Shown here in pieces: positions 16,202 through 52,103 of a stretch of DNA of 64,000 nucleotides. How positions within the stretch are numbered: the first letter of the stretch is position 1; every line of letters starts with the position of its first letter. The position numbers and the translations under genes are program-made. Under the pieces are notes generated by a model. That model made no database searches. It was not told the DNA's origin and saw only the letters and a program-made list of their open reading frames with translations. Origin of the DNA: Longispora fulva (lineage in GTDB: Bacteria > Actinomycetota > Actinomycetes > Mycobacteriales > Micromonosporaceae). The DNA lies in contig NZ_JADOUF010000001.1 in assembly GCF_015751905.1 (NCBI RefSeq), positions 310,001 through 374,000 on the forward strand, given 5' to 3'.

Positions 16202-16214
16202 CCCGTCGAACGCC

Positions 16215-16247: not shown

Positions 16248-16266
16248 CTGAACCCATGAGGTACCC

Positions 16267-19000: not shown

Positions 19001-19005
19001 CAGGA

Positions 19006-19045
19006 GATCCCGGGCTGGCCGCCAACGCGGTCCCAGCCCGGGATC
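19006..19045. terminator. Bidirectional terminator between lutC and the fucose operon
   Basis: A 13-bp perfect stem (19006-19018 with 19033-19045) and 14-nt loop between two converging genes. Confidence 0.75.
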
Positions 19046-19073
19046 CCTTCGCCGCGCCGCCCAGCGCGGTCGG

Positions 19074-20063: not shown

Positions 20064-20072
20064 GATGCTCTC

Positions 20073-20396
20073 CTAGTCGAGGTGGAACACTTCTTCGGCC
20101 GGCGCCCACCACTGGCCCTCGGCGGCGCTGTCGAGGGGCTGTTGGCAGGGGTCGGTGAGGGCCCACCAGCGGCGGGTGGTCTCGTCTTCTGCGATCCGGG
20201 CCATGTCGGCGTCGTAGTCGTCGCCGGTGTACTCGAGGTAGCTGAACAGCAGCCCGTCGCGGAGGAAGATCGAGTAGTTGGTGATGTGGGCGGCGCGGAT
20301 CGTGGACAGGACGCCGGGCCAGGCGTCGGCGTGCAGGGCCCGGTACTCGGCCTCCTTCTCGGGCCGCAGTCGGATCACGGCGGCGAACCTTCGCAT
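20073..20396 (-). CDS. L-fucose/L-rhamnose mutarotase (RhaM family)
   Basis: A 107-residue protein of the RhaM/DUF718 family: MRRFAAVIRLRPEKEAEYRALHADAWPGVL at the N-terminus (written here as the visible start region), the YSIFLRDGLLFSYLEY core with the family's conserved Tyr residues, and WWALTDPCQQP near the C-terminus. Such enzymes interconvert sugar anomers and feed a pyranose-specific dehydrogenase. The ATG at 20396 has GAGGAG upstream; the longer open frame upstream is the opposite reading of the SDR gene. Confidence 0.85.
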   Translation of the reverse strand: MRRFAAVIRLRPEKEAEYRALHADAWPGVLSTIRAAHITNYSIFLRDGLLFSYLEYTGDDYDADMARIAEDETTRRWWALTDPCQQPLDSAAEGQWWAPAEEVFHLD

Positions 20397-20410
20397 GGTC
20401 ACTCCTCGGG

Positions 20411-21154
20411 TCAGCTTCTCGGGCGGAGCCGGAGGCCGGCCATGCCGCCGTCGACGGCCAAGGCCTCGCCGGTGGTCGAGCCTGCCAGCGGCGAGGCGAG
20501 ATAGGCGATCGCGGCGGCGACCTCCTCGGCCGACACCAGTCTGCCGTGCGGTTGGCGGGCTTCGAGGGCGGCGCGCTCGGCGGCCGGGTCTGCGGCGCGG
20601 TCGAGCAACCGGGACACCCACGGGGTGTCGGCGGTGCCGGGGTTGACGGCGTTGACCCGGATGCCGTCGCGGACCAGGTCGGCGGCCATCGCCCGGGTCA
20701 GGGCCAGCACCGCCCCTTTGCTGGCCGAGTACGCCGCCCGCTCGGGCAGGCCGGCCGTCGCGGCGATGGAGCACGTGTTGACGATCGCGGCGTGTTCCGA
20801 CGCGCGCAGCGAGGGCAGTGCCGCCCGGGTCACCCGCACGACGCCCAGGACGTTGACGTCGAGTACCCGGTGCCATTCGTCGTCGGTGTTGGCCTCGACG
20901 GTGCCCTGCGCGCCGATGCCGGCGTTGTTGACGAGCACGTCCAGGCCGCCGAGGACGTCGACGGCGGCGTAGACGGCCGCGCGCACCTCGGCGTCAACGG
21001 AGACGTCGGCGCGCACGTAGGTGAACGGGCCCGTCTCCGCGAGGTCGAGCACCGCGACCCTCGCGCCCCGCGCGGCCAGCATCTCCGCCGTGGCCAGGCC
21101 GATACCGGACGCGCCGCCGGTGACGAGCGCGCGGAGTCCCGTGAAGTCGTTCAT
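20411..21154 (-). CDS. SDR dehydrogenase, probable 2-keto-3-deoxy-L-fuconate dehydrogenase
   Basis: 247-residue classical short-chain dehydrogenase: TGGASGIG cofactor loop near residues 12-19, NNAG, catalytic Ser129, Tyr142 and Lys146 (YSASK), and the NPGTADTPW segment. In the non-phosphorylative fucose pathway an SDR oxidises 2-keto-3-deoxy-L-fuconate to the 2,4-diketo acid; its position directly between the hydrolase and mutarotase genes supports this role. Its start abuts the stop of the hydrolase gene with no gap. Confidence 0.85.
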   Translation of the reverse strand: MNDFTGLRALVTGGASGIGLATAEMLAARGARVAVLDLAETGPFTYVRADVSVDAEVRAAVYAAVDVLGGLDVLVNNAGIGAQGTVEANTDDEWHRVLDVNVLGVVRVTRAALPSLRASEHAAIVNTCSIAATAGLPERAAYSASKGAVLALTRAMAADLVRDGIRVNAVNPGTADTPWVSRLLDRAADPAAERAALEARQPHGRLVSAEEVAAAIAYLASPLAGSTTGEALAVDGGMAGLRLRPRS

Positions 21155-21994
21155 CTATGCCGCCCTGAACTGTTGGCGTTGCCGGCCGAGGCCGTCGATC
21201 TCGACCTCGACGACGTCGCCGGGCCGCAGGTAGGGCGTGCGGGGCAGGCCGAGCGCCACCCCGTGCGGGGTGCCCGTGTTGATGACGTCACCCGGGCGGA
21301 GCACCATGAACTGGCTCAGATACCACACCACGAAATCAACATCGAAGATCATATTTTTGGTACTGCCGTCCTGGCGCTGCTTCCCGTTCACCCACAGCCG
21401 CAGGCCCAGCGCCTGCGGGTCGGGCACGTCGTCGGCGGTGAGCAGCCACGGCCCGAGCGGGTTGAACGTCTCGCAGTTCTTGCCCTTGTCCCACTGCCCG
21501 CCGCGTTCGAGCTGGAACTCCCGCTCGGACACGTCGTTGCTGATCGCGTAGCCGGCGATGTGCGCCCGGGCCTGCTGCGGGGAGTCCAGGTAGCGGGCCT
21601 GCGCCCCGATCACGACCGCGAGTTCGACCTCCCAGTCGGTCTTCACCGACCGGCGGGGGATCAGTACGTCGTCGTCTGGTCCGACGACGGTGTCCGGGGT
21701 CTTCAGGAACACGATGGGCTCGGCGGGGATGTCCGCGCCGGTCTCGGCCGCGTGGTCGCGGTAGTTCAACCCCACGCAGACGATCTTGCCGATCCGGGCC
21801 ACGGGCGGGCCGAACCGTTCGATCCCGCGCACCGCCGGCAGCCCGGGCAACGCGGCCCGCAGGTGGGCGGGGCCGCCGTCGAGCCAGGCTCCTGTGATGT
21901 CGTGGGTCACGGAACTGATGTCCCGCCAGATCCCGTCGTCACCGGCGGCGATGGGGCGTTCCCGCCCGGGTGGTCCGTGTCGTGCGACGCGCAT
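21155..21994 (-). CDS. Fumarylacetoacetate hydrolase family protein, probable 2,4-diketo-3-deoxy-L-fuconate hydrolase
   Basis: 279 residues with the FAH fold. Visible active-site residues: His81 (NYRDHAAE), metal ligands Glu122 and Glu124 (DWEVELAVVIG) and Asp154 (ISNDVSERE), plus the C-terminal INTGTPHGVALG. Predicted to cleave 2,4-diketo-3-deoxy-L-fuconate to pyruvate and L-lactate, the last pathway step and the source of lactate for LutABC. Flanked in the operon by the lactonase and SDR genes. Other 2,4-diketo acids are possible substrates. Confidence 0.87.
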   Translation of the reverse strand: MRVARHGPPGRERPIAAGDDGIWRDISSVTHDITGAWLDGGPAHLRAALPGLPAVRGIERFGPPVARIGKIVCVGLNYRDHAAETGADIPAEPIVFLKTPDTVVGPDDDVLIPRRSVKTDWEVELAVVIGAQARYLDSPQQARAHIAGYAISNDVSEREFQLERGGQWDKGKNCETFNPLGPWLLTADDVPDPQALGLRLWVNGKQRQDGSTKNMIFDVDFVVWYLSQFMVLRPGDVINTGTPHGVALGLPRTPYLRPGDVVEVEIDGLGRQRQQFRAA

Positions 21995-22012
21995 GGTGGT
22001 GCCTTTCCATGT

Positions 22013-22867
22013 TCAGAGGAGGTCGAGGCCGTAGACGCGGATCGCGGTGCCGCCGAAGATGGCGCGCCGGTCGTGGCGGGACAGGCCGGCCAGGCAGGTG
22101 TCCAGCGCGGCTCGGACCTGGCCGTAGCTGGCGGTGAGCGTGCACACCGGCCAGTCGGAGCCGAACATCAGCCGGTCGGGGCCGAACACCTCCAGCGCCG
22201 TGTCGACGTAGGGCTGGAGCATCGCCGGGGTCCAGCCCGGCCCCGCCTCCTGGGTGAGCCCGGACAGCTTGGCGGCGGTGTTGCCGCAGCCGGCCAGGTC
22301 GGTGATCGCCCGCCGCCAGGCCGCCCGCGAGGCGCGGTCCCCGCCGATCGGGGGCTTGCCCAGGTGATCCAGGACGAACGTGGTGCCCGGGGTGGTGCGG
22401 GCGGCTTCGACGCACTCGCCGAGCTGGTCGCTGCGTACGACCAGGTCGGCGACCAGTCCGAGACCGCCGAGGTGCGCCAGCATCCGGCGCACATCCGGAT
22501 GGGCGAGGTAGGCCCGTGACTGGGCCTGCACCTGGTCGCGGACGCCGACGAGCAGGGCACCGCCGGGGAGTTCGCGGTACCTGTGCACGGTCCCGGCGAT
22601 GTCCGGGTCACTGAACGACGCCCAGCCCACGACCCCGAGGATCTCGGGCGTCGACGCGGCGAGCGCGAGGAACCGGACAGTCTCGGCCGCCTCGCACACG
22701 CCGGCCTCGACCAGGACCGTTCCGCCGACCTCTGCCGGGGCGAGGACACGGAGCAGGTCGGCGACCGTGAAGTCCTGTCGGATCGCGGTGAGCCCCGGAC
22801 CCGCCAACCACGGATAGTCCGCCGTCCACAGGTGCTGGTGGGCGTCGACGACCGGTACCTGGTTCAC
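22013..22867 (-). CDS. Amidohydrolase-2 family lactonase, probable L-fucono-1,5-lactonase
   Basis: 284 residues of the COG3618 amidohydrolase group. Metal-binding DAHQHLW at residues 8-14, the FVLDHLGKP strand-end His and Asp in FGSDWPVCT are all present. These enzymes open sugar-acid lactones. The GTG at 22867 overlaps the stop of the upstream ATPase gene (GTGA) and places DAHQH where the family has it; the frame upstream is only the reverse of the ATPase gene. It supplies L-fuconate to the dehydratase encoded at 12840. Confidence 0.87.
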   Translation of the reverse strand: MNQVPVVDAHQHLWTADYPWLAGPGLTAIRQDFTVADLLRVLAPAEVGGTVLVEAGVCEAAETVRFLALAASTPEILGVVGWASFSDPDIAGTVHRYRELPGGALLVGVRDQVQAQSRAYLAHPDVRRMLAHLGGLGLVADLVVRSDQLGECVEAARTTPGTTFVLDHLGKPPIGGDRASRAAWRRAITDLAGCGNTAAKLSGLTQEAGPGWTPAMLQPYVDTALEVFGPDRLMFGSDWPVCTLTASYGQVRAALDTCLAGLSRHDRRAIFGGTAIRVYGLDLL

Positions 22868-24378
22868 GCCGCCATCCCCGTTCCGTGGATGAGCCGGATG
22901 ATCGCGCGGCTCATCGGGGTGTACTCGCGGGTGTTGACCACCTCGCCGGCGATCCGGAAGTCGCGCATGACCGCGATCCGGTCGGCCAGGGCCACCACCT
23001 CGGGCAGGTCGGACGAGATGAGCAGCACCGCCACCCCACTGTCGGCCAGGTCCCCGATGAGCTGGTGGAACGCGCCCTTGGACCGGATGTCGATCCCGAC
23101 GGTCGGCTCGTCGATGATCAGGACCTTGCAGTCGGCGGCGAGCCACTTGGCCAGGCTGACCTTCTGCTGGTTGCCGCCCGACAGCTGCCCGGCGAGCTGT
23201 TCGGCCGAACTGAGCTTGATGTTGAGCCGCTGCGTGTACTCGGTGACGATGGAGTGCTCGGCGCGGTCCCGGACGAGGCCCCATCTCGCGAGTTTCGACC
23301 AGACGGTGACCGCCACGTTCCGGGCGATGGTCTGTTCGAGGAAGACGCCTTCCTCCTTGCGGTTCTCGGTGACGTACCCGATCCGGTATCGCCGTAGGGC
23401 GTCGCCGACGTCACGGATGTCGGCCGTCGCGCCGTCGACGACCACGGTGCCCTCGGTGATCCGGCCGAGCCCGAGCAGGGTCCTGGCCAGTTCGGTGCGG
23501 CCCGCGCCGACGAGGCCGTAGAGCCCTAGGATCTCGCCGGGCTGGACATGCAGGGTGATGTCGCGGTGCCCGGCCGCCGTGGACACGCGGGTGACAGCCA
23601 GCGCCGGCTTGCCCGGGGGGATCACGCGTCGGGTGGCGAGGGCGACCTGGTTGTGTTCCCGGCCGACCATCTCGTTGACGACGTCGTCGTGGCTGTACGC
23701 GCCCAGCAGGGAGGACTCCACGACGCTACGGCCGTCGCGCAGCACGGTGAGCTGGTCGGCGACGGCGAAGACCTCCTCCAGCTTGTGGGTGACCAGGACG
23801 ATCCCGTGGCCGGCGTCGCGGAGTTTGCGCACGACGTTGTAGAGCCGGTCCGCCTCGTCCGAGGTCAGCGAGGCGGTGGGCTCGTCCAGGAGCAACACCT
23901 TGGAGTCGGCGGCCAGGGCCTTGGCGATTTCGACGAGCTGGGCCTGTGCCGGAGACAGCCGCGACACGGGAGTCGACGGGTCGAGGTCGAGGTCGAGCAG
24001 CCCCAGGCAGCGCCGAGCCTCGGCGGTGATCCGGCCCCGGTCCACCAGGCCGCGTCGCCGCGGGAGCTGCTCCAGGCAGATGTTCTCCGCGACGCTGAAC
24101 GCCCCGATCAGGTTGCGTTCCTGGTGGACGACGCCGATGCCTGCGCGCCGCGCCTTCTCCGGGCTGTGCAGGTGCACCTCGCGGCCGTCGACCAGGATCT
24201 GGCCGCCGTCCGGGCGGTACACCCCGGTCAGGATCTTGATTAGGGTGCTCTTGCCCGCGCCGTTCTCGCCGAGGAGGGCGTGGACCCGACCGGCCGCGAT
24301 GGTCAGGTTGGCCCGGTCGAGCGCGCGTACCCCCGGAAAGGTCTTCGTGAGCCCGGTGGCGGTGAGCAGACTCGTCAT
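22864..24378 (-). CDS. Sugar ABC transporter ATPase (RbsA-type, two nucleotide-binding domains)
   Basis: 504 residues with duplicated ATPase domains. The first has Walker A GENGAGKST, signature LSPAQAQLVEIAKAL and Walker B LLLDEPTAS. The second has the degenerate P-loop GLVGAGRTE usual for RbsA/XylG proteins and the signature LSGGNQQKV. It drives uptake of a monosaccharide, most likely L-fucose. Both ends overlap neighbours (ATGA and GTGA), so stoichiometric expression is likely. Confidence 0.93.
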   Translation of the reverse strand: MTSLLTATGLTKTFPGVRALDRANLTIAAGRVHALLGENGAGKSTLIKILTGVYRPDGGQILVDGREVHLHSPEKARRAGIGVVHQERNLIGAFSVAENICLEQLPRRRGLVDRGRITAEARRCLGLLDLDLDPSTPVSRLSPAQAQLVEIAKALAADSKVLLLDEPTASLTSDEADRLYNVVRKLRDAGHGIVLVTHKLEEVFAVADQLTVLRDGRSVVESSLLGAYSHDDVVNEMVGREHNQVALATRRVIPPGKPALAVTRVSTAAGHRDITLHVQPGEILGLYGLVGAGRTELARTLLGLGRITEGTVVVDGATADIRDVGDALRRYRIGYVTENRKEEGVFLEQTIARNVAVTVWSKLARWGLVRDRAEHSIVTEYTQRLNIKLSSAEQLAGQLSGGNQQKVSLAKWLAADCKVLIIDEPTVGIDIRSKGAFHQLIGDLADSGVAVLLISSDLPEVVALADRIAVMRDFRIAGEVVNTREYTPMSRAIIRLIHGTGMAA

Positions 24379-25364
24379 TGGTCGCCTCCAGAGATCTTGT
24401 GCCGGGCACGGCCGAGCAGCACGGCCCCGAGCACGACCGCGCCGATGACGAGGTCGATGAAGCGCCGGTTGATGTTGAACTGCGCCTGGGTCACCTCGAC
24501 GAGCCGGACCAGGAACGAGGCGAGCACGGTGCCCCACACGCTGATCACGCCGCCGGTGAGCGCGACCCCGCCGATGATCGGCGCGGCGAAGCTGGGCAGC
24601 AGCAGGTCGTCACCGACGGAGGCGTTGACGGAGCCGAGGTCGGCCACGATCATGACCGCGGCGACCCCGGCCAGCAGCCCGGACAGCGCGTGCCCGAGCA
24701 CGATGGACCGGTTGTTGGAGATGCCGGACAGGTGCGCGGCGAAGGGGTTGCCCCCGGAGGCCAGCATGTGCCGACCGGGAACGGAGCGGCGGAAGAACAC
24801 CGCCACGCCGCCCGCGACGGCCAGCGCGACCAGGAAGACCAGCGGGATCCCGAGCACCGAGGCGTGGCCGATGCGGACCAGGGCGGGGGAGTAGTCCTGG
24901 TACGTCCCGGTGCCGTTGATGCCGTAGCGCAGCCCCTCGAAGATCGTCATGGTGGCGAGGGTGACGATGAACCCGTTGATCCGGGTACCGACGACCAGCA
25001 GGCCGTTGACCAGCCCGGCGGCCGTGCCGATCGCCAGGGCCGCGAGGACGGCGACGGGTGCCGGCAGCCCGGTGTCGACCATCAGCCCGGCCGAGGCCAT
25101 CGCGCAGAAGCCGGTGAGCGCGCCGACGGACAGGTTCATCTGGCCCACGGCGAGGACGGCCATCTGCGCGAGGCCGATGACGATGGGTACGGCGAGGAAG
25201 CGCAGGAACGCGTCCATCGTGCCGGCGGTGAGCAGGTTGAAGTCGGTCGCCACCGCGAGGGCGAAGAAACCGACCAGCGCGAGGGCCCCGAGCGTGAGCT
25301 CGTTGGCACCCCGGAGCTCACGTTTCGTGGGCGTGTCCGGTCTGGTTGTGGGCGAGGAGATCAC
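24375..25364 (-). CDS. Sugar ABC transporter permease (RbsC-type), second
   Basis: 329-residue integral membrane protein with about eight to nine hydrophobic segments and the BPD_transp_2 features: GQMNLSVGAL in the first third and SGGNPFAAHLSGI loop followed by ALSGLLAG. The GTG at 25364 overlaps the stop of the preceding permease. Together with the next gene it probably forms a heterodimeric channel, whereas many RbsC-type systems use one permease. Confidence 0.92.
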   Translation of the reverse strand: MISSPTTRPDTPTKRELRGANELTLGALALVGFFALAVATDFNLLTAGTMDAFLRFLAVPIVIGLAQMAVLAVGQMNLSVGALTGFCAMASAGLMVDTGLPAPVAVLAALAIGTAAGLVNGLLVVGTRINGFIVTLATMTIFEGLRYGINGTGTYQDYSPALVRIGHASVLGIPLVFLVALAVAGGVAVFFRRSVPGRHMLASGGNPFAAHLSGISNNRSIVLGHALSGLLAGVAAVMIVADLGSVNASVGDDLLLPSFAAPIIGGVALTGGVISVWGTVLASFLVRLVEVTQAQFNINRRFIDLVIGAVVLGAVLLGRARHKISGGDQ

Positions 25365-26440
25365 TTCGCCGCCTCCCTGTCCTGTCGGCGCTGGACGAGC
25401 ACGGTGCGGACCCGGTCGAGGGACAACGCGACGAGCAGTACCAGGCCGATGTAGATCTTGAGGTTCTCCAGGGAGAACTGGAGCAGGTTCAGGCCCTTGT
25501 AGATGACCTGGGAGGCCGTCGCGCCCAGCACGGTGCCCAGGACGCTGACCGCGCCGCCGGCCAGCAGCGTGCCACCGAGCACGGGCGCGAGGAACGACGG
25601 CAGCAGGAACTGTTCGCCGATGGCCGCGGAGAACGCGCCGTTGTTCGCGGCGAGCAGGAACCCCGCCAGAGCCGCGAGGAGCCCGCTGAGCGCGTGGGCC
25701 TGCACGACGCGACGGCGGGTCGGGATGCCCGACAGTTCGGCCGCCCGCATGTTCGACCCGCTCATCAGCATCTCCCGGCCGACCCGGGCGTGCCGGAACA
25801 GCACCCCCACGGCGATCGCCGCGATGACCGCGATCGGCAGCACGAGCGGGATCCGCGGCCCGCACACGTCGCCGAGGCAGTAGTTGGCGAACGTGTCGTT
25901 GCGCAGCGCCGACAGGCCGGCGGGCCGCGCGGAGAACGCCACCCCGCCGGCGAACCGTGTGTAGAGGATGGTCACCAGGCCGAGCAGGCCGAAGTCGAGC
26001 GCGAGGGTCACCACGAACGAGTTGACCCCGGTCACGGCGATGATGCCGCCGGACAGGGCACCGATCGCCGCCCCGACCGCCAGACCGATGAGCAGCCCCA
26101 CGATCAGGGGAACGTCCCACTGGGAGTAGGCGAAGCCCATCGCGAAGGTCGACAGGGCCGCCATCCTGCCCACGGCCACGTTCATGTGGCCGAGGGACAG
26201 GACCGCGAGCTGGGCGAGCCCGACCACGATGTACACGGTGATGTCGGCCAGGAGGGGCGCGATCGTCAACCGGGTGTCCAGGAACGCCGGCCGCAGCGAG
26301 GAGAACACCACCACCAGGGCGATGATCACCAGCGTGAGGCCGACCCGCTGGTTCATCAGCAGTGGCAGGTAACGCCCCCGGCGCGGGGCCGGGGCAGGTC
26401 GCGCCGCCGTGGGCCGGGCCAGGTCACGGAGGGCTCTCAT
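25361..26440 (-). CDS. Sugar ABC transporter permease (RbsC-type), first
   Basis: 359 residues; a charged cytoplasmic N-terminus (about 1-35, rich in Arg and Pro) precedes the membrane domain with GHMNVAVGRM and SGSNMRAAELSGI loops. The ATG at 26440 has AGGAGGG upstream and overlaps the stop of the dehydratase-like gene (ATGA). Paralogue of the next permease in the operon. Confidence 0.92.
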   Translation of the reverse strand: MRALRDLARPTAARPAPAPRRGRYLPLLMNQRVGLTLVIIALVVVFSSLRPAFLDTRLTIAPLLADITVYIVVGLAQLAVLSLGHMNVAVGRMAALSTFAMGFAYSQWDVPLIVGLLIGLAVGAAIGALSGGIIAVTGVNSFVVTLALDFGLLGLVTILYTRFAGGVAFSARPAGLSALRNDTFANYCLGDVCGPRIPLVLPIAVIAAIAVGVLFRHARVGREMLMSGSNMRAAELSGIPTRRRVVQAHALSGLLAALAGFLLAANNGAFSAAIGEQFLLPSFLAPVLGGTLLAGGAVSVLGTVLGATASQVIYKGLNLLQFSLENLKIYIGLVLLVALSLDRVRTVLVQRRQDREAAK

Positions 26441-27525
26441 GCCACCCTCCTGTCGTCGATGGCGTCGGGGTCCCAGTCGATGCCGAGCCCCGGTGCCATG
26501 GGTGCGAGCGCCTGTCCGTCGACCACCGCGATCTCCGTGCGGGTGATGGCGCGCAGCTGCGGGATGTGTTCGAGGTAGGAGCTGTTGGGCACAGCCGCGC
26601 ACAGGCTGACGTGCAGTTCCATCAGGAAGTGCGGGCACACCGTGACGTTGCTGGCCTCGGCCGCGTGCGCGACCTTGAGCCAGGGCGTGATGCCGCCGAT
26701 CCGGGCGACGTCGACCTGCACGATCGCGGCGGCCTGGCGGCGCAGGTACTCCGCGAACTGGCCGATCGAGTACATCGACTCCCCGACGGCCACCGGAAGG
26801 CTGGTCGAACGGGCGAGGATCTCGTGGCCGGCGACGTCGTCGGCGGGCAGCGGCTCCTCGAACCAGGCGAGGTCGAGGGGCTCGAACAGCCGGGCCCGGC
26901 GGATCGCCTCGGCGGTGGTAAACGACTGGTTGGCGTCGACCATGATGTCGAATCGGTCGCCCACCGCCTGGCGGACCGCCGTGAGCCGTTCCACGTCCTC
27001 GGCGGCCGACGGCTTGCCCACCTTGAGCTTGGCCCCGCGCCACCCCGCGTCGCGGCTGGCCTTGGTCGCCGTCACAAGGTCCTCGACGGGCAGGTGCAGC
27101 CAGCCGCCCTCCGTGTCGTACAGGGGAATGCGGTCCTTCGCGCCGCCGGCGAGGACCCACAGGGGCAGGCCGGCGGCCCTGGCCCGCAGATCCCACAGCG
27201 CCGTGTCGACCGCGGCCAGGGCGAGAGACGTGATCGCCCCGACGGCGGTGGCCCGGGTGACGTTGTACAGCTCCCGCCACACGTGCTCCACCCGGGACCC
27301 GTCGAGCCCGACGAGCCGGGGCAGCAGCACGTCTCGCAGCAGCGCGAGCACGGCAGTCCCCCCGGTGCCGATCGTGTACGAGTAGCCGACCCCCGTCCCG
27401 CCGTCAGCTGCCGTGACCTCGACGAACAGGGTCTCCTGCTTGACGAACGTCTGGAGCGCGTCCGTGCGTACGGTCTCCACCGCCACGTCGACCAGGTACG
27501 CCTCGGCGCGAATGATCGTGTTCAC
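26437..27525 (-). CDS. Mandelate racemase/muconate lactonizing-type sugar-acid dehydratase
   Basis: 362 residues, enolase superfamily, mandelate racemase subgroup. The active site appears intact and is numbered almost as in mandelate racemase: Lys166 and Lys168 (AKLKVG), Asp197 (VDANQS), Glu223, Glu249 (VGESM), Asp272 and His299 (CPHF). It is embedded between the binding-protein and permease genes, so it is induced with fucose uptake. Its substrate is not obvious: a second fuconate-type dehydratase, or one for a related 6-deoxy or L-galactose-derived acid, would fit. The GTG start shares one base with the preceding stop. Confidence 0.85.
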   Translation of the reverse strand: MNTIIRAEAYLVDVAVETVRTDALQTFVKQETLFVEVTAADGGTGVGYSYTIGTGGTAVLALLRDVLLPRLVGLDGSRVEHVWRELYNVTRATAVGAITSLALAAVDTALWDLRARAAGLPLWVLAGGAKDRIPLYDTEGGWLHLPVEDLVTATKASRDAGWRGAKLKVGKPSAAEDVERLTAVRQAVGDRFDIMVDANQSFTTAEAIRRARLFEPLDLAWFEEPLPADDVAGHEILARSTSLPVAVGESMYSIGQFAEYLRRQAAAIVQVDVARIGGITPWLKVAHAAEASNVTVCPHFLMELHVSLCAAVPNSSYLEHIPQLRAITRTEIAVVDGQALAPMAPGLGIDWDPDAIDDRRVA

Positions 27526-28583
27526 TACTTGCAGCTCAGGTACTCGGCGTCGAACTGCTTGCGCAGCTCCTCGGTCTTCGCGGTGCGCTGGGCCTCGTAG
27601 GAGTCCAACCCGGTCTTCGTGACCACGAACGAACCGGAGTCGACGATCACGCCGGAGGTCTTCATGGTGCAGCCGGTGGACAGCTTCATCAGGGCGTAGG
27701 AGCCGACGTAGGACTGGCCGACCGGGTTCTGCAGGACGGTGCCGGAGATGGAGCCGTCGCGGATCGCGTCCAGGATCGTCTTGTCGTCGTCGATCGCGAC
27801 CACCTTGATCGGCAACCCGGACTGCTTGACGCCCTCGGCCGAGGCCACGGACGGGTTGTACGCGGTGTTGACGATGCCCTGGATCTGCTTGCCCTTCGCG
27901 GCGAGCAGGTCGGCGACGGCCTTCTTCGCGGTCTGCAGGTCCTTGTCGATGTCGGTGACGTTCTCGATCAGGACCACCTTGCCGCTGGTCTCGGCGACGG
28001 CCTTCTCCACGCCCTTGATCCGGCGCTGGGTGTTGGAGTCCACCTTGTTGCCGGTCAGGTGCACGAGGTTGCCCGTGCCGCCCATCGCGTCGATGGTCGC
28101 CTTCGCCGCCTTGTACGCGGCCACCTCGACGTCGGTGGACAGGCAGAAGTCCGCCTTGTTCTCCCCGGCCGGACACGAGGCCAGCGACGCCACCGGGTAG
28201 CCCTGCCGCTTGAGGTCCTCAAAGGTGGAGTTGATGTTGTCGGGGGACACCCCGAAGATGCCGAACGCGTTGAAGCCCTGCGCGGCGAGGGACTTCAGCA
28301 CGTCGTTCTGCTTGGTCTGGTCCCAGCCGGCGGTCTCGTCGAACGTCGCGTCGCCGAGCTTGAAGTCGGTCTTCGCCTTGCCGGCCGTGGTCTTCCACGG
28401 CTGGAAGTAGGGGTGCGCGCCACCGGGGACCAACGCGACCTTCACCTTGTCGGCCGTCTTGGCCGCCGAGGCTGCCGGGTCGGAGTCGCTCTTCTTCGTG
28501 CAGCCCGCCCCGGAGAGGCCCACCGCGAGGAGCACCGCGAGCCCGACGCCCAGCTTGACGTTTATCCGTGTCATCTCGATCAC
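27525..28583 (-). CDS. Sugar-binding lipoprotein of the fucose-operon ABC transporter
   Basis: 352 residues, periplasmic-binding-protein type 1 fold. A lipoprotein signal with lipobox LSGAGC places the acylated Cys at 28, followed by a Ser/Asp/Ala linker. The mature part shows the two-lobed pattern with AGWDQTKQNDVLKSLAAQG and VNTAYNPSVASA segments. First gene of the ten-gene operon. The GTG at 28583 is chosen because AAGGA lies about 7 nt upstream; the ATG at 28574 is the alternative. Operator site D lies 25 nt upstream. Confidence 0.9.
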   Translation of the reverse strand: MIEMTRINVKLGVGLAVLLAVGLSGAGCTKKSDSDPAASAAKTADKVKVALVPGGAHPYFQPWKTTAGKAKTDFKLGDATFDETAGWDQTKQNDVLKSLAAQGFNAFGIFGVSPDNINSTFEDLKRQGYPVASLASCPAGENKADFCLSTDVEVAAYKAAKATIDAMGGTGNLVHLTGNKVDSNTQRRIKGVEKAVAETSGKVVLIENVTDIDKDLQTAKKAVADLLAAKGKQIQGIVNTAYNPSVASAEGVKQSGLPIKVVAIDDDKTILDAIRDGSISGTVLQNPVGQSYVGSYALMKLSTGCTMKTSGVIVDSGSFVVTKTGLDSYEAQRTAKTEELRKQFDAEYLSCK

Positions 28584-28607
28584 CCGATCCTTGTCCCTTT
28601 ATCGTCG

Positions 28608-28619
28608 ATCCTATAGGAT
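28608..28619. promoter_or_regulatory. GntR-type operator (site D), perfect 12-bp palindrome
   Basis: ATCCTATAGGAT, fully symmetric and flanked by GTCG and GTCGAC, in the divergent region between the transporter operon (minus) and gntR (plus). It probably controls both directions and autoregulates gntR; TAATGT (28631-28636) would be a -10 box for gntR. Confidence 0.75.
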
Positions 28620-28680
28620 GTCGACTGCGATAATGTTTACCTGCCGAGCGAGGACCCGTCAATAGCCGAAGGAGCCACAG

Positions 28681-29373
28681 ATGGCCGAGTCAACAGCCGC
28701 GCCAGGCCGTTCGCCCCGGGTCCGTCCCGCTCGTCGACTCACCCTCAGCGAGGATGTCTACGAAACGGTCAAAGCACTCATTATGGATCACGGCATCCCG
28801 CCGGGCGACCGGGTCAACATCGACGCCCTGTCCCGCGAGCTGGAGGTCTCACCCACCCCGGTGCGCGAGGCCCTCGCCCGCCTGGAGTCCGACGGCCTGG
28901 TCCGCAAGCGCCCCCTCGCCGGCTACACGGTGGCCCCGCTGCTGACCCGCGCGGAGTTCGAGGAACTCTTCGACCTGCGCATCGTGCTCGAAACGGCCGC
29001 CGCCACCCGCGCCGCCACCCGCGCCCCCCTGGCCGCCCGGGAGCTGGCTCTCACGGGTGCGGACCTGGGCATGAGTCCGGACGTGGTGGACGGATACCGC
29101 AGCTACGCCGACTTCACCGCGCTCGACGCCCAGTTCCACGACAGCATCGCCGAACTGGCCGGGAACGCCATGCTCCGCGATGCCGTCTTCCGCCTGCACG
29201 CCCACCTGCACCTGCACCGACTGCACTTCCCGCAGGCCACGGCCGGCAACACCGGCGCCGAGCACGAAGCCATCGTCGCGGCGATCCTGGCCGGCGACGG
29301 TGACGCCGCAGCCACCGCCATGCACGACCACCTCGCGTCGGCGCGGGCCCGGCACCTGGCGGCCTTCGAGTAG
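28681..29373 (+). CDS. GntR family regulator with FCD domain, probable fucose-locus repressor
   Basis: 230 residues. Winged helix at about 20-85 (VYETVKALIMDHGIPPGDRVN, LSRELEVSPTPVREALARLE) and an all-helical FCD ligand domain at about 95-225 with metal-binding pattern residues (D in LRIVLE region, FHDSIAELAGN, HEAIVAAI, HLASARARH). FCD regulators commonly bind sugar acids or carboxylates. GAAGGAG precedes the ATG. It diverges from the fucose operon; four near-identical 12-bp palindromes occur in the locus, so it is the prime candidate for their ligand-responsive repressor, perhaps sensing fuconate or lactate. Confidence 0.88.
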   Translation: MAESTAAPGRSPRVRPARRLTLSEDVYETVKALIMDHGIPPGDRVNIDALSRELEVSPTPVREALARLESDGLVRKRPLAGYTVAPLLTRAEFEELFDLRIVLETAAATRAATRAPLAARELALTGADLGMSPDVVDGYRSYADFTALDAQFHDSIAELAGNAMLRDAVFRLHAHLHLHRLHFPQATAGNTGAEHEAIVAAILAGDGDAAATAMHDHLASARARHLAAFE

Positions 29374-31854: not shown

Positions 31855-33351
31855 TCAGGTCGACGCGTCCAGGTCGCTGAGCCGGCAGGTCTGCAGTCCC
31901 GCGAGGTCCGCGCCGTCGAGCAGCCGTTCCAGGATCTCGGCGAGCGACGTGCCGATCACCGGGATGTCCGCGGGCGCTTCCAGCAGCCGGTGCGGCGGAT
32001 CCAGTGGGTGCGACCGGTCCGGGTTCTCCCCGATCCCGCATATCACCCAGTACGCGGCCGCGCTCGGGTGGTGGTGGTGGCCGACCGCGAGGCTGCGGCC
32101 GTCGGCGAACTCCGCGATCGCGGTGACCGGCACCTGGTCGCGCCGGACATGCTTGTGGTCGGCCACGGGCAGGACCCGCCAGCCGCCCTGGTTCCGAGCG
32201 GCCGCCGACCCGAACCGCCGGTACAGCGCCAGCGCCTCGGCGGACACCGCGTACGGCTTGAACCGGTTCGCGACCGGCGGCGTGGTCTCGTGCTCTGCGA
32301 CGATCCGGTCGAGCACGTGGTCGATGTGGACGGTCGCGGGGAGCAGGTGCCAGCCGGCGACCGGCCGCAGTGCCCCGTCCGGGTCCTGGGCGATCCCGAC
32401 CAACCCGGCGTGCAGCTCCACGGCACTGAGCTGGTCGAGGGTGCGGTCGTTGATCGTGATCCGCACCTTGGACAGCGTCGCGGGCACGCCGGCGCTGCTG
32501 ATGCCGGGGCCACGGTAGGACCGGTGGTCGACGGTCAGGTCGCGGGGCTCGTCGAGGGGGAGCTCGAGGAGCGGGTTCGGGCGGTCGATGCCGCCGTCCT
32601 CCAGCAGGTACGGGTACAGCCGTGCCGCCCAGCCCGTGATCAGCTCGCCGCCGTAGGCGTCGACGGGGTTGTAGATCCGACGCCAGAACGCGGTGTCGAC
32701 GTCGCCTGCGGCGGCTCGGACGAACTGGGCGGCGATCGGGGCGAGCGAGCGCCGCCACTCGTGCAGCCCGTACCGGTCGAGGGTATCGACGCGGTCGGCG
32801 ATCCGCCGCCAGTCGGCGACCGTGCCGGTCAGGGTGACCGTGGGTATCCCGCACACGGCGACCATGACGAGCGCGAAGTAGGGCGAGTACACGTCGAGCA
32901 TCACGACCCGGCCGGCGGTCCGGTCGACGGCGGTACTGGTGCTGAAGTCGCAGCCCGGCAGCTCGCCGACCTCGCCCTCCAGCAGGTCGGCGAACTGGTC
33001 GACGGCCCGCGACCAACCCGCCGCGTCCACCGGCACCGCAGTGACCGGCACGGTCAGGTCCCGGCGGCCCCGGTGGCTGACCAGGTGGTCGCGGAGCTCC
33101 TCGGCGTGCAGGCGGACGTGCTGGGCGACGCCCTGCGCGATCGTCAGCCAGACCGCGTCCGGGGACAGGACCAGGGGCCGGTGCTCGGCGAAGGCCCGGC
33201 CGACCGCGGCGAGCAGCGGATGCACTCCGCCCGGCGCCAGCACCCGCCGGTCGGGGTCGCCGCCGACGGCCAGTGCGCCAGGGCTGACTGAGCTCAGCGG
33301 CACGGTCGGCAGCGGGCTCGCCGCCGGGGTCACCTCATCCACCTGGAACAT
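31855..33351 (-). CDS. DUF4419 domain-containing protein
   Basis: 498 residues. The N-terminal two thirds resemble DUF4419 (HPLLAAVGRAFAEHRPLVLSPDAVWLTIAQG, the FSTSTAVDRTAGRVVMLD and DWRRIADRVDTL segments), a family widespread in fungi and bacteria with no known function. The last 170 residues (LPATVHIDHVLDRIVAEH, GGWRVLPVADHKHVRRDQVP) include a HHHH run in VGHHHHPSAAAYW. No signal peptide. The ATG at 33351 starts a stretch just before the conserved part; a longer frame from 33498 is unlikely. See the in-frame tail after its stop. Confidence 0.7.
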   Translation of the reverse strand: MFQVDEVTPAASPLPTVPLSSVSPGALAVGGDPDRRVLAPGGVHPLLAAVGRAFAEHRPLVLSPDAVWLTIAQGVAQHVRLHAEELRDHLVSHRGRRDLTVPVTAVPVDAAGWSRAVDQFADLLEGEVGELPGCDFSTSTAVDRTAGRVVMLDVYSPYFALVMVAVCGIPTVTLTGTVADWRRIADRVDTLDRYGLHEWRRSLAPIAAQFVRAAAGDVDTAFWRRIYNPVDAYGGELITGWAARLYPYLLEDGGIDRPNPLLELPLDEPRDLTVDHRSYRGPGISSAGVPATLSKVRITINDRTLDQLSAVELHAGLVGIAQDPDGALRPVAGWHLLPATVHIDHVLDRIVAEHETTPPVANRFKPYAVSAEALALYRRFGSAAARNQGGWRVLPVADHKHVRRDQVPVTAIAEFADGRSLAVGHHHHPSAAAYWVICGIGENPDRSHPLDPPHRLLEAPADIPVIGTSLAEILERLLDGADLAGLQTCRLSDLDAST

Positions 33352-33711
33352 CACCACCGCGATGGTAGCCGTCGGCGGCCCCGCCCACCGACCCGTCGAC
33401 CTGGCCCTCCCATCATGTTCATTCCCGGAAAGTGACCTCATCGACGCCGACCCCGACAACCCCGCCCAGTCGGTCGCCGACGCCTTCCTCACCACCACCT
33501 ACGACCTCGACCGCACCGGGATGGCTGCCCCACCCTGGCGAGGACACGACGCCGCAGGCACGCGGCGGTGACGGCCTCAGGTCCTCGCCGAATCAAGGGC
33601 AAGCCCTCAAGCTGGCCCGGTGAGGTCGATGGCATCGAACTCACCGTGACCGACAAGCGCGACCAGGTGCTCCGCCAGCTGTCGTGTCCGCCCAGCCCTC
33701 GCCGAGTGTTC
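33352..33711. other. Intergenic region
   Basis: 360 nt between the DUF4419 gene and the sugar-isomerase-like gene. A plus-strand frame (about 33425-33571) contains a short protein-like piece (NPAQSVADAFLTTTYDL) without a start codon of its own; it may be a remnant but is too short to identify. Confidence 0.3.
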
Positions 33712-46909: not shown

Positions 46910-49141
46910 TCATCGCGCAGGGTGCCGGTCCTGACGATCGGCGGGGAGGAAGCCAACTCGGGCGCGGCCGCTCCGAGGACCCCAGGTGCGGCTCCTGAGC
47001 GGTGCGGGTTCGTCTATGACGCCCTCGTCGAGGAGCGCCAGGAACGCGTCCACGACCACGGGGTCAAACTGCGTGCCCCGGCCACGGGCGAGCTCGTCGC
47101 GGGCGTGGATGTCGGCGAGCACCGGCGAGTACGGTCGGCTGGCGCGCATGGTGGCCCAGGCGTCACAGACGGCGATGACGCGTGCTTCGACGGGGATGTT
47201 CGCGCCCGCCAGCCCGCGGGGGTAGCCGGTACCGTCGTACCGTTCGTGGTGGGCGGCGATCAACGGTGCCAGGTCCTGCCGGTCGGCCAGGTGGGTGACC
47301 AGACGTGCGCCCTCCTCAGGGTGGCGGCGTATCTGCTCCCATTCCTGCGCGTTCAGCGGGGTCGGTTTCGCCAGGAGCGTCCAGTCGACGCCGATCTTGC
47401 CGACGTCGTGCAGTCGGGCGGCGGCGGCGGTGCGGTGTTGGACCGCCTGGTCGAGCCCGACGCGGGCCGCGGTTCTGAGCGACCAGCGCGACACCGCCGC
47501 GGAGTGTTCGTGGTCGCCGACCCTGGCGTCGATCTGGTCCGCCAGCCAGATGAGTTCCGCCGGAATCTCGCTGAGCGGATCGAGATCTGGTCGGGACGGC
47601 TGGCCGGGACCGACGACGCGGTCGCGCCCCTGGGCCTTGGCGCGATAGACAGCCTGGTCCGCGGCGTTGACGAGCTTGTCGACATCGATCGGCGTGCCTT
47701 GCCGAGAAGTCCGGCCGGTGCTCACCCCCAGTGAGGCGGTCAGCACCACGCCGTCCGTCACGTCGGGGATGGTGACCGGTGTCCGGCTCAGCGCCGACCG
47801 GATGTGTTCGGCCAACGCGACCGCCGCCTCCTCACCCGTGCCGGGCAGGACACACAGGAACTCCTCGCCGCCGTAGCGGGAGACCAGGTCGCTGGCGCGC
47901 AGCGTTCGGCGCAGGCGGTGGGCCGCCTCGACGAGAACGACGTCACCGGCCGCATGCCCGTACGTGTCGTTCACGTTCTTGAAATGGTCGAGATCGATGA
48001 GGATCAGGCTCAGCGGCGTCTGGCGACGGGCGGACAGTCCAGCTTCGGCGTGCAGCATCTCCGCGCAGAATCGGCGGTTGTAAAGCCCGGTGAGCGAGTC
48101 GGTGTCGGCTGCCGTCTGCAACTGGCGGGTCAGCCGGGCGCGGTCACGCACGGCGAGGATCTGCCGCAACAGCAGCCCCACCATGAGCAGGACGCTTACC
48201 GCCAGGGTCACGGCACGCAGTTCGTCGACCAGAACCAGATCGAACACCGCGAGGCCGACGACGGTGAGGAACGCGACCAGTGCCGGGAGGATAGTCATGT
48301 CCCGGTCGGGCGTCAGTCGCTGGTCGCCCTCCGACCGGCGCACCGCCACGAGCGCGGCGATGCACAGGAGCACTGCCTCAGCCTGCCAACCGAGGTTCAG
48401 CCAGCCCGAACCCGCGTAGGGCTGGATCACGTGGAGGAACTTGGACAGGTACAGGTAGCCGGCTTCACTCGCCGCGGACAGTCCGAACGCGACACCGACG
48501 AGGATCATGGACACAGGCACCCTCCGGCGGCCGGCGACCACCGCCGCGATGAGGCTGCTGAAGATACTCATGGAGATCACGGGAAAGAAGAAGGCCACCA
48601 GCGCCTGCAGCCCCGCGCTGAGGGAACTCGGCAGGAGCGGCCCGACCACCAGTTCCCAACCGACGGCGAACACCGCAGCGAACACCAGGAGGAAATCGAA
48701 CAGCCCCCTGGCGCCGCCCAGCACACCGAAACCCAGCCCCACCAGGACCGCCGGCACCGCCGTGGCATACGACAGGAGGTAGCCCAGATCCGCGAACGAG
48801 GGAACGGGGGCGTCCTTCGGTGCGAGATAGGCGTAGAGGCCCCAGGTGAGTTCCGCGGCGAACCACAGCGCGTTCGACACGAACATCAGTCGCCAGGCCA
48901 GACGGACCCGGCCCTCGGTACGGGCCGCCGCGAACCAGCTCAATACCACGGCGATCACGATGGGGACGAGATACAGGCCGAAGGCGACGAACTTTCCCAA
49001 CGCGGGCGATCGTTGCCCCGCGGCGATCGCCCCCGCGTACAGCACTATCCAGGCCAGTCCCGCCATGACAGCCCACACCAGGACGCGGTCAAGGCGCGTG
49101 TTCCACAGCCCGATCGAGGACCCCGCGGCTGGTCGCCCCAC
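46910..49141 (-). CDS. Membrane GGDEF diguanylate cyclase with HD-GYP domain
   Basis: 743 residues. About nine to ten hydrophobic segments (residues about 20-330), a GGDEF domain (about 350-510) with LTGLYNRRF, DLDHFKNVNDTYGHAAGD and the active-site form YGGEEF, then an HD-GYP phosphodiesterase-like domain (about 530-700) with LHDVGKIG and HHERYDGTGYP. Both catalytic motifs appear intact, so it could both make and break cyclic di-GMP. Combined membrane sensor, GGDEF and HD-GYP is less common than GGDEF-EAL. Confidence 0.9.
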   Translation of the reverse strand: MGRPAAGSSIGLWNTRLDRVLVWAVMAGLAWIVLYAGAIAAGQRSPALGKFVAFGLYLVPIVIAVVLSWFAAARTEGRVRLAWRLMFVSNALWFAAELTWGLYAYLAPKDAPVPSFADLGYLLSYATAVPAVLVGLGFGVLGGARGLFDFLLVFAAVFAVGWELVVGPLLPSSLSAGLQALVAFFFPVISMSIFSSLIAAVVAGRRRVPVSMILVGVAFGLSAASEAGYLYLSKFLHVIQPYAGSGWLNLGWQAEAVLLCIAALVAVRRSEGDQRLTPDRDMTILPALVAFLTVVGLAVFDLVLVDELRAVTLAVSVLLMVGLLLRQILAVRDRARLTRQLQTAADTDSLTGLYNRRFCAEMLHAEAGLSARRQTPLSLILIDLDHFKNVNDTYGHAAGDVVLVEAAHRLRRTLRASDLVSRYGGEEFLCVLPGTGEEAAVALAEHIRSALSRTPVTIPDVTDGVVLTASLGVSTGRTSRQGTPIDVDKLVNAADQAVYRAKAQGRDRVVGPGQPSRPDLDPLSEIPAELIWLADQIDARVGDHEHSAAVSRWSLRTAARVGLDQAVQHRTAAAARLHDVGKIGVDWTLLAKPTPLNAQEWEQIRRHPEEGARLVTHLADRQDLAPLIAAHHERYDGTGYPRGLAGANIPVEARVIAVCDAWATMRASRPYSPVLADIHARDELARGRGTQFDPVVVDAFLALLDEGVIDEPAPLRSRTWGPRSGRARVGFLPADRQDRHPAR

Positions 49142-49276: not shown

Positions 49277-50560
49277 TCAGGGCGCGCCCCAGCGCGGACG
49301 GCGGTGGAATCTGGACAGGATCTCGTCGTGGATCCGGCTGGCGCATCCCGGTGCCCTCGGGACCTGGTAGGCGCCGTCGCGCACCAAGGCCGGTTCCACG
49401 AGGTGTCCATGCGGGTTGGCCGTGTATTCGAGCATCCGGCCGTCGAGGGTGCCGGAGACGGCGATGTTGTCGAACATCGCCAGATGCAGGGCCAGTTCGG
49501 GGAATCCGACGCCGCCGGGGCGCGGGCGGACGGGTACCCGGTAGTGCGCGGCCAGGAGCAGGACCGCGATCATCTCGTTGATCCCGGCGACCCTGGTCGC
49601 GTCCATCCGCAGGACGTCGACCGCGTTGGCCTGGAGCAGTTGTTTGAACACGATCCGGTTGTGCACGGATTCACCGGTGGCGATCCTGATCGGCGTGACG
49701 TTGCGCCGGATCGCGGCGTGTCCGAGGACGTCGTCCGGCGACGTGGGTTCCTCGATCCAGCAGGGGTCGAATTCCTTGAGTTCGCGGATCCACTCCGATC
49801 CGCCTGACACATCCCATCGTTGGCCGGCGTTGAGCGCTATCGGGATGAGCGGCCCGACCGTGTCGCGGAGGAGCCGCAACCGGCGCCGGTCGTTGGCCAG
49901 GTCCTCCCCGACCTCGACCGTGATCTGTTCGAAGCCCGCGGCCACGGCTTCCTCCGCCAGCCGGACCAGGGTCTCGTCGGGATGGCCGAGCCACCCCGGT
50001 TCGGCCGTGCACGCCGGATAGCCCTGTGCCCGCAGTTCCTCGGCGCGTGCGGCCCGGCCGGGGAGTGCCTCCTCCAGGAGGTCGGCCGCGTCGATCGGGG
50101 TGATCGCCTCGGTGAGGTAGCGGAAGTCGACCAGGTCCACGATCTGGTCCACGGACATTGCGGATAGCAACTCCCACAGGGGTTGCCCGGCCCGTCTGGC
50201 CGCAAGGTCCCAGACCGCGTTGATCACGACGCCCATCGCGATGTGCAGGACGCCCTGCTCGGGGCCGAGCCAGCGCAGCTGGGAGTCGTGGAGCAGGCTG
50301 CGGGAGAACCCGCCGAGATCGCCGGCGACCTGGTCGACATCGCGGTCGAGGACGAACGGAGCGAGGGCGTCGATGGCCACGACGAGGACGTCGGTGCGGC
50401 TGCCGTCGGTGGAGACGAAGGCGGTGCCGTGCTCGCCGGTGTCGGTTTCGAGGGTGAGGTATGCCGCCGAGTAGCCGGCGTCCGGCGCGCCCGTGCCGGA
50501 CGGCCGCTGTGACCTGGGAATCCGCAGGTCGACGGTGTCGAATCTCGCTACTCTGCTCAT
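49277..50560 (-). CDS. L-fuconate dehydratase paralogue lacking catalytic residues (enolase-superfamily pseudoenzyme)
   Basis: 427 residues, collinear with the dehydratase encoded at 12840 and sharing long motifs ([37 protein letters not shown]). The catalytic set is altered: KLK becomes T214-V-E216, the metal ligand Asp242 becomes Asn244 (LNAGQRW), and catalytic His352 becomes Arg347 (RPRPGG). Glu270/271, Glu297 and Asp320 remain. Dehydration by the known mechanism is therefore not expected. The frame is intact, arguing for selection on another role such as ligand binding or partner protein. Divergent from a LacI regulator, with palindromic sites between. Confidence 0.85.
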   Translation of the reverse strand: MSRVARFDTVDLRIPRSQRPSGTGAPDAGYSAAYLTLETDTGEHGTAFVSTDGSRTDVLVVAIDALAPFVLDRDVDQVAGDLGGFSRSLLHDSQLRWLGPEQGVLHIAMGVVINAVWDLAARRAGQPLWELLSAMSVDQIVDLVDFRYLTEAITPIDAADLLEEALPGRAARAEELRAQGYPACTAEPGWLGHPDETLVRLAEEAVAAGFEQITVEVGEDLANDRRRLRLLRDTVGPLIPIALNAGQRWDVSGGSEWIRELKEFDPCWIEEPTSPDDVLGHAAIRRNVTPIRIATGESVHNRIVFKQLLQANAVDVLRMDATRVAGINEMIAVLLLAAHYRVPVRPRPGGVGFPELALHLAMFDNIAVSGTLDGRMLEYTANPHGHLVEPALVRDGAYQVPRAPGCASRIHDEILSRFHRRPRWGAP

Positions 50561-50687
50561 TTCATGCCTCTCGGGCTGATGGAGCTGCCAGCGAGAGCCG
50601 TCGGTGCTCTGGGGCCGGCTGGGTTCCGTGCGGGTCGCGCCTCCGGGGGATGGCCCGCGCGAGGTGAATCTGTTCCGTTTGCTGCAA

Positions 50688-50697
50688 ATAACGTTAT
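50688..50697. promoter_or_regulatory. LacI-type operator 1
   Basis: ATAACGTTAT, a perfect palindrome within AAATAACGTTATCTC, about 130 nt upstream of the enolase-superfamily gene. The central CG is typical of LacI-family sites. Confidence 0.6.
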
Positions 50698-50855
50698 CTC
50701 ACTGCCGGCGACCTCGAGATGGTGCGTGACGAAGGGTAGGGAGGAGAACGTAAACCTTTTTCGCGTGACCTGTCAAGATTCTAGGGAAATGTAACGGATG
50801 CGGTTCGGAGCAGCTTCGACTTCCAGCCGTTTCGGTGCCGTCCGACGCTGGTAGA

Positions 50856-50870
50856 GGTAACGTTATCCTC
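50856..50870. promoter_or_regulatory. LacI-type operator 2
   Basis: GGTAACGTTATCCTC contains the perfect core TAACGTTA (50858-50865) with partly symmetric GAGG/CCTC flanks. It is 170 nt from operator 1, so DNA looping by a tetramer or two dimers is possible. Confidence 0.6.
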
Positions 50871-51077: not shown

Positions 51078-52103
51078 ATGACCCAGCGATCGGCCGACGG
51101 GCCCCGGCGTCGCAGACGCCCGACGATGCTGGACGTCGCCCGCGAGGCCGGCGTGGCGCTGCGTACCGTGTCCCGGGTCGTCAACGACGACCCGACCGTC
51201 GGTGCCGAACTGGCCCTCCGCATCCGTGCGGCGATCGCCAAGCTCGACTACGCCCCCGACGAACGCGCCCAGCAGCTGCGCCGGGGGACCAGCGGCGTCA
51301 TCGGGGTGGCCGTGCGCAGCCTCGACGGCCCCAACCCGGTGCTCAGCGCCGTGAACCGGGCCGCCCGCGAGCATCGGATGACCATCCTGGCGATGTCCAC
51401 CGACGATGAGGAGAACAGCGAACGCGACGCGGTCATGTCGATGTGCCGCCGCAGGGTCGACGGCATCATCATGGAGCCGATCATGGGCAGCCACCAGTAT
51501 CTGGCGTCGGAGATCGAGTCCGGGATGCCGGTGATCGCCATCGACCGGCCCGTCCAGGGGGTGGAGACCGACGCCGTCCTGTCCGACAACGCCGCCGGCA
51601 TCGGCATGGCGTTTCGGCATCTCGTCCAGCACGGCCACCAGCGCATCGCCTACATCGGCCACGAGGAGCGCGTCTTCACCGGCCGTGAACGCGCCGCGGC
51701 CTTCCGCGCCTGCACCGCCGCCAACGGCGGTCCGGTCGAGGGCATGGTGCACCCGGGTGCCATCGAAGCGGCGCGGATCGCCGCCGCGCTGGCCACCGCG
51801 TTCGACGGGGACCGGCCCGCCACCGCCCTGATCACCGGGAACGAGGGGGCCACCGTCGAGGTGCTCCGCCAACTCGGCCCGGCCGCGGGCACCGTGGCCA
51901 TCGTCGGGTTCGACGACTTCCCGCTCGCCGACATTCTCCGGCCCGGGCTGACCGTGATCGCCCAGGACACCGCGACGATCGGCCGCACCGCCTTCGACCT
52001 GCTGCTGGCCCGCACGGCGGACCTCGCCCGCCAGGTCCGGACGGTCACGGTGCCGGTGGAGCTCGTCGTCCGGGGTTCCGGGGAACTCCCGCCGCCAGCC
52101 TGA
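51078..52103 (+). CDS. LacI family transcriptional regulator
   Basis: 341 residues. HTH and hinge at about 15-70 (TMLDVAREAGVALRTVSRVVNDDPTVG, then LDYAPDERAQQLRRG) and a periplasmic-binding-protein-like effector domain (about 75-335; RRVDGIIMEPI, HQRIAYIGHEE, TVAIVGFDDFPLADILRPGLTVI). GAGGAG precedes the ATG. Two TAACGTTA palindromes in the upstream region are the probable binding sites, and a third similar site lies at 55915. Confidence 0.92.
   Translation: MTQRSADGPRRRRRPTMLDVAREAGVALRTVSRVVNDDPTVGAELALRIRAAIAKLDYAPDERAQQLRRGTSGVIGVAVRSLDGPNPVLSAVNRAAREHRMTILAMSTDDEENSERDAVMSMCRRRVDGIIMEPIMGSHQYLASEIESGMPVIAIDRPVQGVETDAVLSDNAAGIGMAFRHLVQHGHQRIAYIGHEERVFTGRERAAAFRACTAANGGPVEGMVHPGAIEAARIAAALATAFDGDRPATALITGNEGATVEVLRQLGPAAGTVAIVGFDDFPLADILRPGLTVIAQDTATIGRTAFDLLLARTADLARQVRTVTVPVELVVRGSGELPPPA

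Follow-up and report, generated by a model that had tools for sequence, protein, structure and literature searches.

Gene Content of the Locus

The window, which is the whole stretch of 64,000 nucleotides of Longispora fulva DNA that was analysed, carries on its minus strand a gene derived from fuconate dehydratase (FucD) at 49277–50560, as identified by its open reading frame, alignments and Pfam. The frame was intact and complete, with an ATG start and 427 codons for 427 amino acids. The product aligned end to end with that of the FucD paralogue at 12840–14138 (−), which was intact by alignment and by its catalytic columns. The two shared 237 of 427 residues (56%, E 5e-160), and every insertion or deletion between them consisted of whole codons. 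An earlier reading of the sequence alone had described the intact 427-codon frame and the whole-length alignment to this paralogue, and both were confirmed. The Pfam domains MR_MLE_C (4.3e-49) and MR_MLE_N (1.9e-05) both scored above the cut-off, and the closest solved relatives were the X. campestris FucD structures (best 453 bits, about 50% identity). A Shine–Dalgarno-like GAGAGG was read in the sequence at 50567–50572 (−), 6 nt 5′ of the ATG. In addition, the genome possessed three further full-length FucD genes (the one at 12840 in the window and two elsewhere), which were 52 to 57% identical to the FucD derivative and were all intact at the catalytic positions.

The FucD derivative stood alone, flanked on one side by a GGDEF/HD gene and on the other by the genes of a LacI-family repressor and an RpiR-type regulator, 20 kb beyond an apparent non-phosphorylative L-fucose island at 9704–29373. 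The island contained GH95 and GH29 fucosidase-type genes, the intact FucD gene, and genes for an aldo/keto reductase, an SDR, an FAH-type hydrolase, an amidohydrolase, a sugar ABC transporter and a GntR regulator. A second, distant dehydratase of the mandelate-racemase type was found in the island within 26437–28176 (−); its best NCBIfam match was talarate/galactarate dehydratase with 311 bits, below the cut-off of 500. L-Lactate is a product of the fucose route, and the gene at 16267–16962 (+) encoded a solitary cysteine-rich (CCG) protein similar to the C-terminal portion of one subunit of quinone-linked L-lactate dehydrogenase. Furthermore, a DUF4419 protein was encoded at 31855–33498 (−).

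The gene with GGDEF and HD domains (46910–49141, −) lay directly downstream of the FucD derivative on the same strand. In the gap of 135 bp between them no terminator-like site was found, and its fold was not unusual (z −1.11); no operon of the two genes is claimed. No close match to the GGDEF/HD gene was found in one congener. Homologues occurred in 5 of 16 relatives, where they showed no link to the LacI gene; in one genome (G319) the pair lay 2.1 Mb apart.

Replacement of the Catalytic Residues

In FucD, which converts L-fuconate to 2-keto-3-deoxy-L-fuconate, the two lysines of the KxK motif on strand 2 (K218 and K220) presumably act as base and in carboxylate binding, D248, E274 and E301 are taken to be the three acidic Mg ligands, and H351 and D324 are taken to form the His–Asp dyad. 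The numbering follows X. campestris FucD (solved structure 2hne), and all positions of this gene refer to the minus strand. The KxK motif was replaced by T-V-E at codons 214–216 (49913–49921; alignment and model), D248-A-N250 by N-A-G at codons 244–246 (49823–49831), and H351-A352 by R-P at codons 347–348 (49517–49522), the last two by alignment. Thus, the replacements were K218T, K220E, D248N, N250G and H351R, and in the model they fell at the ends of barrel strands 2, 3 and 7. Alignment showed that E274 (codon 270, 49751–49753), E301 (codon 297, 49670–49672), D324 (codon 320, 49601–49603) and E382 were retained. The Mg-ligand triad therefore reads N, E, E and the dyad reads R and D, so that of the features expected of a functional FucD the full-length homology was present, and the KxK motif, the third acidic Mg ligand and the His–Asp dyad were absent. 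According to the consulted part of PMC3197473, vertebrate ENOSF1 shares with FucD the residues that coordinate Mg and abstract the proton, two acidic Mg ligands are common to the superfamily, and eight conserved catalytic residues are counted.

The nine catalytic-site positions read K-K-D-N-E-E-D-H-E in 60/60 other rows of the alignment and T-E-N-G-E-E-D-R-E in the FucD derivative. Moreover, K218, K220, D248, N250 and H351 were invariant in all 67 intact FucD rows, comprising 66 loci and X. campestris FucD; both the 60-row and the 67-row sets are best matches to the FucD derivative and no random sample. Left out of the 67 rows were L035, L037 and L038, with broken or partial frames, and L005–L008, L039 and L040, which are distant superfamily members. 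The FucD derivative had lost 32 of the 113 columns that were invariant in the intact rows, compared with 7/120 and 3/116 for the next worst rows in a leave-one-out comparison. The lost columns included D24, M26, N27, P30 and D31 in the 20s loop, F54, R58, G59 and N60 in the 50s loop, and Y188, T190, H302, Q322, A352, D385 and H386 elsewhere, with the substitutions H302S (next to E301), Q322R, A352P, D385A and H386N. The earlier reading had correctly named the change of KLK to T-V-E, of the ligand Asp to Asn and of the catalytic His to Arg, corresponding to K218T/K220E, D248N and H351R. Its count of three lost catalytic elements holds, but it understated the damage, as N250G, the five further substitutions and the changes in the two loops were missed.

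Sequencing error or misalignment was rejected as the source of the replacements, which occupied several separate sites in columns ungapped against the paralogue. The Streptomyces FucD copies L037 and L038, with broken or partial frames, are pseudogenes or assembly errors. The pieces of L035, L037 and L038 were canonical at the catalytic positions that they covered, and L038 had a T-to-I change beside E301. It is nearly certain that the FucD derivative does not act as a fuconate dehydratase.

Distribution of the Losses

The active-site face was taken to comprise the 20s and 50s loops and the strand ends in the model of the protein, each counted from 2 residues ahead of the end to 3 beyond it; these windows and loops were chosen with the list of losses already known. 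Under this rule, 20 of 45 invariant columns were lost on the face and 12 of 68 away from it (Fisher P 0.002). The strand ends alone showed no enrichment (9/28 vs. 23/85, P 0.39), which indicates that the two N-terminal loops carry much of the signal. The same was seen with four window sizes: strand ends alone were never significant, and together with the two loops they were significant in all four. Clustering of the lost columns along the sequence was not significant (P 0.21). Among the more variable columns off the active site, 13/104 and 22/180 held a residue that no other family member showed, near the 12/68 at invariant columns. This flat share is expected from partly relaxed constraint and argues against strict selection on the entire protein.

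Predicted Fold

The FucD derivative was modelled by AlphaFold2 with 24 relatives, and the model had a pLDDT of 84.0 and a pTM of 0.88; since the alignment consisted of intact relatives, these values are insensitive to instability. The 12840 paralogue, treated alike, gave 86.7 and 0.90. The top Foldseek matches of the model were FucD structures (TM 0.92, 2.3 Å). Accordingly, Pfam, the model and Foldseek all placed the protein in the mandelate-racemase type of the enolase superfamily, with an N-terminal capping domain and a modified TIM barrel. With the fold kept, the catalytic residues lost and the frame intact, it has the features of a pseudoenzyme. One of the Foldseek matches was 2HXU, whose title describes a K220A mutant of FucD with Mg and L-fuconate; judging by the title, a substrate-bound crystal form can be obtained when only K220 is missing.

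Compared with X. campestris FucD (XCC4069; 1YEY, 2HNE, 2HXT and 2HXU), the FucD derivative had full-length homology, the fold, and E274, E301, D324 and E382 in common. It differed in the replacement of K218, K220, D248, N250 and H351, in its rewritten 20s and 50s loops, and in its position away from pathway genes. Human ENOSF1 (4A35), the counterpart of FucD, was also homologous along its length (399.9 bits). It retains the catalytic residues and is active, according to the excerpts seen of PMC3197473 and PMC13406643, whereas the FucD derivative is without them.

Search for Orthologues

The family, order and class samples overlapped, and scoring was limited to 4 or 5 candidates in each genome. 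A protein search of 354 family genomes found no orthologue; among the matches listed, the best full-length one was L041 with 523.5 bits and 57% identity, compared with 958.5 bits for the protein itself. In 397 genomes of the order (E ≤ 1e-140) no orthologue was found either, and the best other match among those listed had 501.6 bits. For 394 genomes of the class, the matches listed contained none but the protein itself at E ≤ 1e-147. GTDB representatives, scanned once with exact peptide patterns, yielded 30 loci, with at most 62% identity in the best segment and 55% over the full length, and no orthologue. In addition, all 811 plasmid records were below 60% identity, and the 5 phage records were distant. 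A diverged relative with a dead site would rank under intact copies, and the DNA of the 354 and 397 genomes was therefore searched for the pattern N-A-x-Q-R-W-D. It matched in 9 and 7 genomes, respectively, and of the 13 loci only the gene itself was FucD-like. One congener was without a FucD-type match (best 26% identity).

The sequence-only reading had proposed a search for orthologues in which T/E, N and R are conserved. In all of these samples of the family, order and class and in the GTDB scan, none was found. Consequently, there is no sign from orthologues of selection keeping the FucD derivative.

The LacI Regulator and Its Operators

The gene of the LacI-family repressor was located at 51078–52103 (+), divergent from the FucD derivative, and was assigned by Pfam and by comparison with orthologues. 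Two LacI-type palindromes, AATAACGTTATC at 50687–50698 and GGTAACGTTATC at 50856–50867, were found by pattern search and orthologue comparison. Sites of the form RTAACGTTAYC occurred twice, both between the FucD derivative and the LacI gene, and nowhere else in the 8.68-Mb genome. Orthologues of the repressor, with 61 to 74% identity, were present in 12 of the 52 genomes searched, which were the holders of high-scoring FucD genes and one congener. The best match in the congener was 46%.

Stretches of 9 to 20 kb were compared around each of the 12 orthologues (L100–L111). In all 12, the divergent neighbour was a homologue of one ABC-importer solute-binding protein (Pfam SBP_bac_8 in the one representative tested), and a permease homologue stood next to it in 10 of 12 loci. 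An operator of the GATAACGTTATC type lay between the two divergent genes in 12/12 loci, with the variant GATAACGTTGTC in L106, and the two operators of L. fulva matched that of every one of these loci. The number of operators differed, with two in L. fulva (50687–50867) and one in each of the 12 relatives. No FucD gene adjoined the LacI orthologue in any of the 12 compared stretches. A canonical FucD gene was found about 13 kb from the orthologue in G333, and in G332 the contig that carries the orthologue also held a FucD match at a distance of about 19 kb. Three of these loci were annotated; GH95-type genes were near those of G312 and G342, and a GH16-type gene was near that of G334.

Thus, the L. 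fulva locus resembled those of the relatives in the repressor, the operator and the divergent layout, and differed in that the FucD derivative stood where they had the SBP_bac_8-type gene. No close copy of the solute-binding protein was found in the L. fulva genome; the best match had 30% identity over part of its length, which indicates that the orthologue is absent. Two importer-type operators together with the missing binding protein indicate that the FucD derivative occupies the slot of the importer, with repressor and operator inherited from an importer circuit. From the layout, LacI may control the FucD derivative. The earlier reading had credited the gene with a divergent LacI regulator of its own with operators. 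The regulator and both sites are real; since all 12 orthologues face an ABC-importer gene and not a FucD gene, it is unlikely that this LacI originated as a regulator of the FucD derivative.

Decay or Retention

In a quick tree search, the FucD derivative was placed on a long branch (1.38 changes per column at its end, compared with a median of 0.097) and had no supported sister, so its source paralogue is not named. Neutral evolution was simulated from one intact relative (L041) with 300 runs per setting and base changes only. When 20 to 32 of these 113 invariant positions had been lost, 1.9 to 4.5 stops were expected, and 0.7 to 15% of the runs were stop-free. Frameshifts, which lay outside the simulation, would further lower the share of intact frames. 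Drift alone is thus unlikely to account for the whole divergence and could account for part of it. The GC content by codon position was coding-like (0.724/0.477/0.881). The third-position value of 0.881 compares with 0.947, 0.903 and 0.965 for the three paralogues and 0.853 for the GGDEF neighbour.

The FucD derivative is probably an enzyme that was retired and retained in another capacity, or else one in slow decay. We give a probability of roughly 0.5 to the reading that a FucD copy, having lost the dehydratase chemistry, persists as a folded and regulated protein that is retained for a purpose other than catalysis, and this is favoured by the intact frame, the codon bias, the ribosome site and the modelled fold. 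It is possible, though not probable, that the gene is instead a relic, a redundant duplicate under weakening constraint whose frame happens to have escaped stops and frameshifts so far. Decay stays a live explanation because there are no orthologues, the end branch is very long and invariant positions were also lost off the active site. Moreover, three intact paralogues make the gene dispensable, its third-position GC is below that of the other three FucD genes, and it occupies a position vacated when an importer was lost. However, few neutral runs stayed free of stops, all indels against the paralogue were whole codons, and the third-position GC was not below that of the GGDEF neighbour. L037 and L038 show the reverse pattern, with the frame broken and the catalytic residues kept, although assembly errors could explain them. 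The earlier claim that the protein has a new role and is not decaying is therefore only partly borne out: the gene has kept its frame and codon bias and the protein its modelled fold, but the lack of orthologues and the 12/68 losses off the site weaken it. The earlier reading would also have taken missing orthologues together with relaxed selection as evidence against itself; the first of these was found, and the signs of selection are indirect and mixed.

Catalysis of another kind is an unlikely account. In that case, the protein would be an enzyme acting on a different substrate through E216, R347, E270, E297 and D320, and would either have a changed metal site or do without metal. In favour of this, D324, E382 and two of the three Mg ligands persist, the substituted residues are charged or polar, and members of the enolase superfamily switch chemistry at these strand ends (as described in the parts consulted of PMC9795676 and PMC10415035). 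However, the strand-3 Asp is lost, both KxK lysines and the His are gone together with no evident general base left, and the flanking genes (GGDEF/HD, LacI and RpiR-type) include no pathway gene. Finally, that the protein still dehydrates fuconate and the residues were mis-assigned is extremely improbable. The 56% identity to the intact paralogue and the same fold would fit such an enzyme, but the catalytic columns are ungapped and unambiguous and do not vary in the 67 intact rows, and a K220A variant served to hold L-fuconate in the crystal, as the title of 2HXU indicates.

Proposed Mechanism and Significance

For the retained non-catalytic protein, the following course may be proposed. A FucD copy of the mandelate-racemase subgroup of the enolase superfamily would have lost the dehydratase chemistry and kept the barrel fold. 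Both KxK lysines, one of three Mg ligands, the dyad His, and much of the pocket loops and strand ends are gone, while the barrel and most other invariant positions have stayed. E216 and R347, which would face each other on strands 2 and 7 at the former K220 and H351, might form a salt bridge; the pocket would no longer hold metal well. LacI would repress the gene until its sugar appears, and the protein may then work through contact and not turnover, by associating with or modulating any one of the intact FucD paralogues, of which there are three, or by binding a different ligand. A fuller version of this proposal, in which a repressor–importer circuit was rewired, with LacI and operator retained and the importer lost, and the dead FucD in the vacated position became a sugar-inducible non-catalytic partner that tunes the living FucDs or buffers a sugar acid according to how much inducing sugar is present, is rather doubtful. 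The role of fuconate sensor that had been suggested earlier is less likely than was then held, because residues of the sugar-acid pocket loops and strand ends changed along with the catalysts.

Pseudoenzymes are well known in many families. No dead fuconate dehydratase was described in the titles and abstract openings of full-text literature on pseudoenzyme or noncatalytic members of the enolase superfamily, a corpus with few subscription journals. The consulted part of PMC10415035, which covers pseudoenzymes and the enolase superfamily, names no dead member. The prozyme of Trypanosoma AdoMetDC is a dead paralogue that activates its partner (excerpt of PMC5201418), and the likeness is that of a dead copy beside living paralogues. 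For the FucD derivative, a complex with a living paralogue would be hypothetical. If the protein is kept for a use, it would be a recent, single-lineage case in which a protein lost its catalysis and was captured by a regulatory circuit of foreign origin, open to study beside three living paralogues.
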